NCBI RefSeq assembly: GCF_017635265.1
Contig: NZ_JAGBLU010000137.1
Coordinates: forward strand, 78,900-142,899
Length of the DNA: 64,000 bases
Reading direction: 5' to 3'
From: Butyrivibrio sp.
Lineage (GTDB): Bacteria > Bacillota > Clostridia > Lachnospirales > Lachnospiraceae
The notes under the pieces were generated by a model that saw only the letters and a list, made by a program, of their open reading frames with translations, was not told where the DNA came from and ran no database searches. The position numbers and the translations under genes were made by a program. Positions 58,837-60,299 of this stretch are shown here, piece by piece; the stretch's first letter is position 1, and each line of letters opens with the position of its first letter.

Positions 58837-59196
58837 ATGGCAGATATAGAGATTTCAAAAAACATGGCAAAAATGGCTGTTGAAGCCCTTGAGGACAGAA
58901 AGGGAGAGGATATTCACGTTATTGATATAAGTGAAATATCTACACTTGCAGATTATTTTGTGATTGCCAGCGGTACAAATATCAATCAGGTTCAGGCTCT
59001 GGCTGATAATGTTCAGGAAAAGCTCGGAAGATCCGGACACGATACAAAAAACGTAGAAGGTTATGAGACAGGAAAGTGGATTCTTCTTGACTTTGGAGAT
59101 ATCATTGTTCACGTATTTGACAGTGAAAACCGTCTTTTCTACAACCTTGAACGTATCTGGCGCGATGGCAAGCTTATCGATGCTTCCGCTCTCTAA
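58837..59196 (+). CDS. rsfS: Ribosome silencing factor RsfS
   Basis: A 119-residue protein that binds L14 and blocks subunit joining in starvation. DYFVIASGTNINQVQALADN and EGYETGKWILLDFGDIIVHVF are diagnostic. It is the last gene of the obgE-rsfS run and is followed by the long hairpin at 59217-59428. Confidence 0.96.
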   Translation: MADIEISKNMAKMAVEALEDRKGEDIHVIDISEISTLADYFVIASGTNINQVQALADNVQEKLGRSGHDTKNVEGYETGKWILLDFGDIIVHVFDSENRLFYNLERIWRDGKLIDASAL

Positions 59197-59216
59197 TAAC
59201 TATACATTCTTATAAA

Positions 59217-59428
59217 CAGACGCAGATGATATGGAAGTTTAGACATAGTTATGTTCACTCCGGTATTTTTCAATGTGATAAATTGGACATAAAACGCCCA
59301 CAAAAGACTTGTTTCATGCTTATTCAGAGCACAAGTCTTTTGTGGGCTTATTTATATCCATTTATCATCATTTCAAAATAAATCGTTCACATAACTATGT
59401 CTAAACTTCCACAGCATCTGCTGTTCTG
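59217..59428 (+). repeat. Long hairpin 1 with a 20-nt loop, downstream of rsfS
   Basis: Arms of 95 and 97 bases flank a 20-base loop (59312-59331, TTTCATGCTTATTCAGAGCA). The inner 16 bp (59296-59311 with 59332-59347) and a 22-bp outer block (59233-59254 with 59389-59410) pair perfectly; between them the arms still match with scattered mismatches, and GCAGATG pairs with CATCTGC near the ends. No frame is open in it. Read in the rsfS direction the loop is nearly identical to that of hairpin 2 read in the lexA direction. It may act as a terminator but has only TTATTTAT after the inner stem. Confidence 0.85.
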
Positions 59429-59458
59429 CTAAAAAATATTATCTTGACAGTAAATAGA

Positions 59459-59652
59459 AAAATCCATTCATGCCCATAGCTTTGGATAGAGCGATTTAGT
59501 ATGAGCAATAGAGACTGTTAATAAAAAATAATTCGCCTCATTTCCTGTTTTGAATAAGCATGAAAGGAAATGAGGCGAATTATTTTGAATTTACTGTCTC
59601 TTTGCGAATACTACCCGAGCTCTGGACAAAACTATGGGCACAAATGGATTTT
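59459..59652 (-). repeat. Long hairpin 2 with the same loop, downstream of lexA
   Basis: Two 87-base arms flank a 20-base loop (59546-59565), which on the minus strand reads TTTCATGCTTATTCAAAACA. The inner 19 bp (59527-59545 with 59566-59584) are perfect, and the outer ends (59459-59479 with 59632-59652) match except two bases. The stem sequences are unrelated to those of hairpin 1; only the loop is shared (18 of 20). On the minus strand the inner stem is followed by TTATTTTTTATT, so it can terminate the lexA transcript. The gene-free stretch 59197-59678 consists almost only of these two hairpins. Confidence 0.85.
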
Positions 59653-59678
59653 ATTTTTGCTCTCGCAAGAAAGTATAG

Positions 59679-60299
59679 TTATTTGTAAAAGCGCATGATG
59701 CCGAAGACTTTGCCGAGGATAGTGCAGTCGTCTACTATGATTGGTTCCATGGTATCGTTCTCAGGCTGAAGTCTGATGTGACCTTTTTCTTTGTAGAAGG
59801 TTTTTACTGTTGCTGAATCATCAATGAGCGCAACGACCTGATCACCATTCTTTGCTGTATTGCAAACCTGAACAAAAATCTGGTCACCGTTAAAAATACC
59901 GGCATTTATCATCGAATCACCCTTAACATTTAAAATAAAAGCATCTGAACCCTTAGGACACATACTTGCAGGAATAGGGATGTATGAATCAATATTCTCC
60001 TCTGCAAGAATAGGAGCACCTGCAGCTACCTGACCTATAACGGGAATGCTGACAATCTCAGTTCTTACCATGTTAAAACCATCATCACAGATTTCAATTG
60101 CACGAGGTTTTGTAGGATCTCTTCTGATATATCCATTTTTTTCAAGTGTTTCCAAATGAGAGTGAACAGAAGAAGTAGACTTAAGATTAACTGCAGCGCA
60201 GATATCTCTTACTGAAGGCGGAAAGCCTCTTGAAAGAGTTTGCTCTTTAATATAATCCAGTATTTCCTGCTGTTTCTTTGATATATTCCCTTTAACCAT
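59679..60299 (-). CDS. lexA: SOS repressor LexA
   Basis: A 206-residue repressor. The N-terminal winged helix (QEILDYIKEQTLSRGFPPSV, then STSSVHSHLETLEKNGY) reads the SOS box. Self-cleavage occurs at Ala93-Gly94 (VAAGAP), with catalytic Ser129 (GDSM) and Lys166 (ATVKTFY). GGAGGT lies before the minus-strand start. LexA boxes in the shared upstream region indicate self-control together with the divergent LysM gene. Confidence 0.97.
   Translation of the reverse strand: MVKGNISKKQQEILDYIKEQTLSRGFPPSVRDICAAVNLKSTSSVHSHLETLEKNGYIRRDPTKPRAIEICDDGFNMVRTEIVSIPVIGQVAAGAPILAEENIDSYIPIPASMCPKGSDAFILNVKGDSMINAGIFNGDQIFVQVCNTAKNGDQVVALIDDSATVKTFYKEKGHIRLQPENDTMEPIIVDDCTILGKVFGIMRFYK

Follow-up and report, generated by a model that had tools for sequence, protein, structure and literature searches.

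Butyrivibrio genomes carry a scattered family of hairpins of about 200 bases in which the loop is nearly constant and the stems are variable yet paired. Two members lie between the convergent genes rsfS and lexA in the window, the 64,000-nucleotide stretch of a Butyrivibrio genome analyzed here. Across the family the loop and internal mismatches are constant, the stems covary, position and orientation relative to genes are shared, and the same gene end differs between species in the hairpin it bears. A paired form of types A and B is dispersed. We consider these genus-wide giant imperfect palindromes, which stand at the terminator position, mostly in sense and directly behind stop codons, to be best explained as REP-like mobile 3'-end terminator hairpins, a reading in which we place about as much belief as doubt.

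The original prediction described two long fold-backs between rsfS and lexA with the same 20-nt loop, each loop in the sense orientation of the gene directly upstream. Both hairpins are present as located (Table 1) and fold far below shuffled sequences. As RNA, 59217-59430 on the plus strand (hairpin A) reached -98.8 kcal/mol (z -15.0) and 59440-59660 on the minus strand (hairpin B) reached -96.5 kcal/mol (z -13.9), with 0 of 200 shuffles as good in either case. On recounting, the oppositely oriented loops A (+) and B (-) are alike at 18 of 20 positions (90%), and each is in the sense of its preceding gene, A to rsfS and B to lexA. Because of similar end motifs (TACATTCTTA and CAAGAAAGTA) and the outer flanks AATAACTA / TAGTTATT, we count A and B as a single tail-to-tail unit of ~480 bp, best explained as a composite of two hairpins, one per convergent gene; as a whole, we hold this explanation with even confidence. 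Rfam 15 at gathering score gave no match on any hairpin of the window and 14 loci, so that a known RNA family was rejected for these, and a permissive scan of the window region gave 30 matches, all sub-gathering and many of them microRNA precursors.

Table 1. Features of the rsfS-lexA intergenic region and its two genes, in window coordinates.
Feature	Position	Strand	Basis and remarks
rsfS gene	58837..59196	+	end 20 nt upstream of hairpin A; ORF and Pfam RsfS, E 9.4e-36
Left end motif of composite A/B unit, TACATTCTTA	59203..59212	+	sequence; several other copies read TACTTTCTTG
Hairpin A (type A)	59217..59428	+	fold; covariance model match C115:138148-138299, E 6.3e-24
Foot of hairpin A	GACGC 59219-59223 / GCTGTTC 59420-59426	+	
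Conserved internal loop of hairpin A	5' side CACTCCGG 59256..59263; 3' side AAATCGTTCA 59380-59389	+	sequence, family alignment
Conserved 2x2 TC/TC internal loop of hairpin A	5' side 59270..59271; 3' side TC 59373-59374	+	
Inner stem, loop and T-rich tail (predicted terminator-like core of A)	59296..59355	+	sequence, family profile
Apical loop A, TTTCATGCTTATTCAGAGCA	59312..59331	+	sequence, fold
Hairpin B (type B), sense to lexA	59459..59652	-	fold; covariance model match C115:138376-138527, E 8.3e-23
Inner stem, loop and T-run (predicted terminator-like core of B)	59521..59590	-	sequence, fold, family profile
Apical loop B, TTTCATGCTTATTCAAAACA	59546..59565	-	sequence, fold
Right end motif of composite A/B unit, CAAGAAAGTA on +	59666..59675	-	sequence
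lexA gene	59679..60299	-	stop codon adjoins right end of unit; ORF, Pfam LexA_DNA_bind and Peptidase_S24

A search of the source genome with the 15-mer from the loop, as the original prediction had proposed, found further copies with pairing arms. Exact matches to the 15-mer number 19, and allowing up to 2 mismatches raises the count to 66, compared with 15 for a reversed control pattern. Most of the 24 loci with 0-1 mismatches form a long hairpin around the loop, the exceptions being three that are partial or broken (L007, L008 and L022) and one truncated at a contig end (L020), while no long hairpin was found in the six 2-mismatch loci folded (L025-L030). The 19 exact 15-mers, together with matches across the genus, rule out a chance local duplication with inversion. 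Several copies are located at contig ends, so the family may be under-counted.

Types A, B, C and others are told apart by stem sequence. The source genome holds five tail-to-tail A/B pairs including that of the window, with loops ~240 nt apart (contigs C40, C76, C115, C132 and C133, the partner on C76 having one mismatch). BLAST of the window unit against the same genome gave 51 matches; these include four further A/B units of full length, which are 90-94% identical and have flanks that differ from unit to unit. By eye, A/B units share similar inverted ends, TACTTTCTTG...CAAGAAAGTA. Some A/B copies are broken, and some single copies, for example L063, resemble remnants of pairs. Three loci (L080, L086 and L380) resemble hairpins that have shrunk to their outer stem, with a short palindrome and A/T tracts left. 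At two others (L079 on C113 and L082 on C28) one half of hairpin A continues into unrelated sequence that is nearly identical at both loci, and a shared repeat precedes it; no transposase that would mark an autonomous element was found among the ORFs listed there.

Hairpin size is about 190-300 nt, with arms mostly of about 90-150 nt each. The apical loop is kept as TTTCATG(C)TTATTCARARCA or shorter variants, and two internal mismatches are kept across the family, a 2x2 TC/TC loop and a CTCGG / AAATCGTTC loop. Many types also share a paired foot, G(G)ACGC / GCTGTYC, and the stems in between are free. We built an alignment (A1) and a covariance model (R1) from 22 cores. Double changes occur at 21 of the 25 consensus pairs of this alignment, and among its 550 cells there are 3 one-sided changes and 4 wobbles, with 92.2% paired and about 8% unpaired. 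The covariation score, which uses a structure taken from the same alignment, was 0.706, compared with 0.193 when shuffled and 0.10-0.14 (maximum 0.138) with partners slid. The stems covary almost wholly through Watson-Crick exchange, and the apical and two internal loops stay constant, which together bear out the claim of a conserved loop with free but paired stems. Among the eight hairpins of one genome (G207), outer arms are 59% identical across copies, and arm complementarity is 72% within the same copy versus 53% between different copies. Three copies in LB2008 are closer to each other, with outer arms at 77%.

The position of the hairpins behind genes is equally regular. In a named, pattern-matched set, 22 of 23 hairpins have their loop centre 60-170 nt downstream of a same-strand stop codon, compared with 384 of 4156 random positions (9%), and 5 of 23 have an opposite-strand stop beyond the loop. 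This count used ORFs of at least 100 codons, one locus (L303) was dropped as a non-hairpin, and a few of the hairpins are orthologs of each other; the lone exception is the second member of a hairpin pair. In a wider cleaned set of 96 distinct hairpins the corresponding numbers are 77 and 24, so that the sense orientation at 3' ends anticipated by the original prediction is found in most copies. A looser count of orientation over 101 rows gave 73 same, 21 opposite and 7 unclassified. These became 70, 17 and 4 of 91 after ten rows were dropped as chance matches or the same hairpin read on the other strand (L084, L124 twice, L133 -, L151 at 2489, L173, L230 -, and antisense rows in L248, L250 and L252). 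Hairpins in opposite sense include L137, L138, L139/L166/L167, L226, L238 and some A/B copies. The stem base of many E-type copies is close to the stop codon.

By its base composition, the inner stem resembles an intrinsic terminator. The T fraction peaks at 0.89 at 16 nt past the loop, where GC is near 0, downstream of a GC-rich stretch. The inner stem is followed by a T-tract in 94 of the 96 distinct hairpins, and in two equally sized outer windows 25 and 39 of 96 have one; in a looser set the numbers are 108 of 119 versus 68 of 119 in a control window of unequal size. A consensus terminator scan of the window region, restricted to loops of 3-8, found none. The hairpins share the A-tract, GC-rich stem, T-tract and place behind stops of Rho-independent terminators, and many relatives have, by eye, an ordinary-looking one at the same spot; they differ in the ~20-nt constant loop, in a core nested in a far longer palindrome and in forming a dispersed family. 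Behind a permease-like gene (named by eye), the hairpin was present in 7 of 30 fetched genomes out of 55 matching, and in sense in 7 of 7, three of these genomes being closely related (G305, G306 and G364); the other 23 have mostly an ordinary-looking terminator by eye. At a convergent locus fetched from 30 of 79 genomes, R1 matched SIG345 (G330) only, where the hairpin (L295) takes up all of the sequence separating two convergent stop codons; of the other 25 complete gaps, the majority contain, by eye, either a different long palindrome or a short hairpin resembling a terminator. At this one locus R1 therefore does not match just any long palindrome, since the single match in 30 was the one with the constant loop and several others were giant palindromes. 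Very long near-perfect palindromes with GGGGACGGTTC-like units, some nested, were seen at four loci (L342, L346, L355 and L356); they are unmatched by R1 and occupy the same intergenic gap in other Butyrivibrio species. A Clostridiales-1 RNA (RF01699) lies beside a tRNA on the contig of one E-type hairpin (L304:124-287).

Of 79 genomes of the genus, 21 contain the loop pattern with up to 2 mismatches; lone matches may be chance. With R1 at E <=0.01 and the best <=39 candidates per genome scored, at least 45 of the 79 genomes match, up to 35 times per genome; the sum of at least about 400 matches includes weak ones (E near 0.001-0.01), not all of them checked. Copies with pairing flanking arms in relatives, on which the original prediction depended, are found across Butyrivibrio. 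Among 397 genomes of the bacterial family (334 genera), R1 matched 2, both of the same genus, with the best 7 candidates per genome scored, so that weaker relatives could be missed. The exact E-type loop pattern occurs in 23 stretches of an 84,980-species collection. Of these, 21 are titled Butyrivibrio, one from Eubacterium sp. is a real hairpin, and one from a proteobacterial MAG is no hairpin. Carriers of E-type hairpins include the laboratory strains LB2008 and B. hungatei NK4A153. Two exact-pattern scans of viral contigs gave one match, which folds into no hairpin and lends no support to carriage by phages. No description of such elements in Butyrivibrio was found among the top-ranked literature matches; PMC10434271 counts inverted repeats of 6-30 bp.

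Between species, the core is kept in place. In 13 ortholog comparisons, which are partly non-independent, core and loop differed at 52 of 1930 sites (2.7%), outer arms at 146 of 1188 (12%), the stretch just before the outer arms at 26 of 364, and the CDS end at 406 of 3612, or at 267 of 3360 without L120/L160, where the upstream side is unaligned (range for the CDS end 8-11%); the loci were chosen for a recognisable loop in both species, which favours conservation. In 14 comparisons, 706 of 738 core pairs were unchanged, and the 32 changed pairs comprised 9 G.U, 5 A.C, 10 mismatches and 8 double changes (7 Watson-Crick). One-sided changes in the core fell on the 3' arm in 21 of 24 cases, and the outer arms had 90 one-sided changes. 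When hairpins were counted along their full length in 17 comparisons, Watson-Crick pairs had undergone 152 one-sided changes, compared with 21 compensated ones, which indicates that decay is common, mainly in the outer arms. Three copies are plainly broken (L066, L067 and L084).

The hairpin behind a given gene can also differ between species. One gene is followed by a broken B in the source genome (G000), an A/B pair in G305, a C-like single in G306 and a B in G364, and behind a second gene the hairpin type differs between G305 and G306/G364. At rsfS-lexA, G364 has the order of the window, and in G305 and G306 rsfS is followed by one B and a chemoreceptor gene, after which comes lexA. This chemoreceptor gene adjoins the B hairpin (L208 and L209; MCPsignal by Pfam in L208/G305). 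Gene segments beside copies are inverted between close species at L077/L120/L160 and L072/L307/L312, where it looks as if hairpin copies mediate inversions. No clean empty site was found for L072 or rsfS-lexA, which are rearranged or occupied in three close relatives, and none that could reveal a target duplication was found among related loci. The suggestion of a palindromic mobile element is favoured by the spread of the A/B type and its four other units in different flanks.

Selection on the sense RNA is expected to leave G.U pairs far above A.C. A first wobble count covered those hairpins, 72 of 83, whose folds had 55 pairs or more. G.U made up 207 of 5758 pairs in the sense fold versus 195 of 5667 in the antisense fold, which was the more stable (-100.0 vs -93.1). 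In 35 E-type hairpins G.U made up 142 of 2982 pairs in sense versus 111 of 2915 in antisense, a slight sense excess (Wilcoxon p 0.04, binomial 0.06), and the antisense folds were again more stable on average. G.U is therefore hardly above A.C (207 vs 195; 142 vs 111), rather than far commoner as in structured RNA, and we conclude that pairing is mainly a DNA matter or that the fold is too stable for single pairs to count. The small strand bias of the wobble pairs also fits the mobile terminator hairpin. Selection on an RNA or single-strand DNA fold, one origin proposed for the pattern, agrees with the conserved loop and paired stems, but its RNA form agrees poorly with these counts. The other proposed origin, snap-back copying, is partly supported, since nearly all changes between types are double Watson-Crick changes, as copying or repair from arm to arm would give; the inverted-copy test on CDS ends was weak overall. 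In a swap/permutation test of whether the outer arm repeats the end of the host CDS in inverted form, over 70 loci that include a few chance-match rows, the mean was 15.3 versus 14.4 (p 0.025). Only L236, whose stem extends 33 nt into the CDS, was clearly positive, and we reject an inverted host CDS end as the general source of the outer stem.

One alternative to the mobile terminator hairpin is a host regulatory RNA element, in which the mRNA 3' end would present its constant loop to a small RNA or a protein controlling stability or processing, the genes would form a regulon and mobility would be secondary. Sense orientation in 22 of 23 and 7 of 7 hairpins, a core kept in place more than the neighbouring CDS and compensation in 7 of 32 changed core pairs all agree with such an element, and covariation of pairs is shared with structured RNA elements. 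Nevertheless, we think it somewhat unlikely: G.U is hardly above A.C (9 vs 5 in the core), antisense folds are on average more stable, outer arms drift, the same gene end bears a different hairpin type or none, and no described family in Rfam 15 reached gathering score on the hairpins scanned. Another possibility is that ordinary terminators were lengthened in place by template switching, with no mobility and a constant loop that reflects shared origin. Double Watson-Crick changes with hardly any wobble step, the single palindrome that makes up the entire convergent gap of L295 and the reach of L236 into its CDS could be explained in this way, yet a constant loop at unrelated loci requires dispersal, extension into the CDS is not general and A/B copies are dispersed, which makes this account hardly credible. 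A classical terminal-inverted-repeat MITE inserting at TA, of whose ends the hairpins would be parts, seems very improbable. The A/B unit is MITE-like in being short, without evident gene and multi-copy, and in its similar ends TACTTTCTTG...CAAGAAAGTA (by eye, in A/B units only) and window flanks AATAACTA / TAGTTATT; it differs in consisting of two hairpins that each fold on themselves and have similar loops but dissimilar stems. Other types also occur as singles, and D and E singles in the loci inspected are without such ends. No autonomous copy was met in analyses that were aimed at the hairpins, and no clean empty site was found.

The nearest known kind is the REP/BIME/REPIN class, which the Butyrivibrio hairpins resemble in dispersal, stem mismatches, inverted pairs and location at gene ends. 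REP and BIME elements are described as dispersed imperfect palindromes in inverted pairs behind coding regions, read strand-specifically and, in E. coli, with conserved stem mismatches (PMC3733652, PMC8266576, PMC3116915). Here TC/TC and CTCGG/AAATCG are the conserved mismatches and the five A/B pairs are the inverted pairs. REPs are 20-50 nt long (PMC8266576), and most of them bear a GTAG or CGTC tag that is unpaired. According to PMC8266576, TnpA-REP recognises the single strand in its folded form by the foot tag, the mismatch and the loop, and does so strand-specifically. The Butyrivibrio hairpins exceed this size range and have a constant ~20-nt loop. Their foot, G(G)ACGC/GCTGTYC, is a paired one, with CGTC in its complement but not as an unpaired tag. 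In 29 of 30 fetched Y1 loci from 12 genomes, searched with R1 at E up to 1 in flanks of <=1500 nt and including five of eight long-form matches, a single match at E 0.16 was found, and a RAYT link was therefore set aside. On the grounds of size, foot, loop and the absence of a flanking RAYT gene in the searched loci, we keep the family outside REPs. Long-form Y1 transposases, which by length we take to be RAYT-like, occur in five of the 12 Butyrivibrio genomes searched (L262, L263, L264, L272 and L273); near that of L263 is a separate short palindrome, AGGGACGGAGGTT, outside the constant-loop family. A further alternative is a giant REP-like element that is purely selfish, with a Y1/HUH enzyme moving the folded single strand and gene ends serving as merely tolerated targets. 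Such an element would share the tail-to-tail pairs, stem mismatches and place behind genes described for REP/BIME in PMC3733652 and PMC8266576, and could explain the dispersed and partly broken A/B copies. We consider it quite improbable: the hairpins are roughly four to ten times as long as REPs, an unpaired GTAG tag was not seen, the Y1 loci searched gave no transposase with flanking hairpins, and the core is conserved in place; sense orientation and in-place conservation exceed what such an element needs. Group IIC introns also insert in one orientation beside gene-end hairpins. So do insertion sequences that target terminators or REPs, as PMC1525189 describes, but no ribozyme, reverse transcriptase or transposase was seen in the Butyrivibrio hairpin.

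Several results speak against the mobile terminator hairpin, namely the hairpins in opposite sense, the empty consensus terminator scan with its loops of 3-8, and the failure to find a clean empty site or, in the Y1 loci searched, a transposase gene with flanking hairpins. For this hairpin, a possible mechanism can nevertheless be outlined. The A-tract, GC-rich inner stem and T-tract would stop transcription, which would leave the loop near the mRNA 3' end. The loop would most likely be the recognition element, and a putative factor could read it and the internal mismatches on the folded strand; that this factor is a loop-binding protein is a guess. Copies may spread to other gene ends as folded DNA, by analogy with what is thought for REP elements, and the arms could stay complementary if mismatches in the folded strand were repaired or recopied from the partner arm.

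A wider reading, which we regard as speculative and rather unlikely, is that of a mobile gene-end module in which the hairpin displaces the native terminator, a shared factor reads the loop, a regulon spreads by transposition and the arms are kept complementary via DNA recopying of the folded strand. If this were true, the mRNA 3' end of each gene reached would fall under a common factor. The combination of a constant loop with free Watson-Crick stems is unlike usual RNA evolution, where G.U steps are common, and unlike plain transposon copies, which have their stems in common. The family, which R1 matches about 400 times in at least 45 genomes of one genus, provides a natural series on how palindrome arms stay complementary. 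It also allows one to ask how elements reach gene ends in one orientation and if a terminator can spread as a mobile part.
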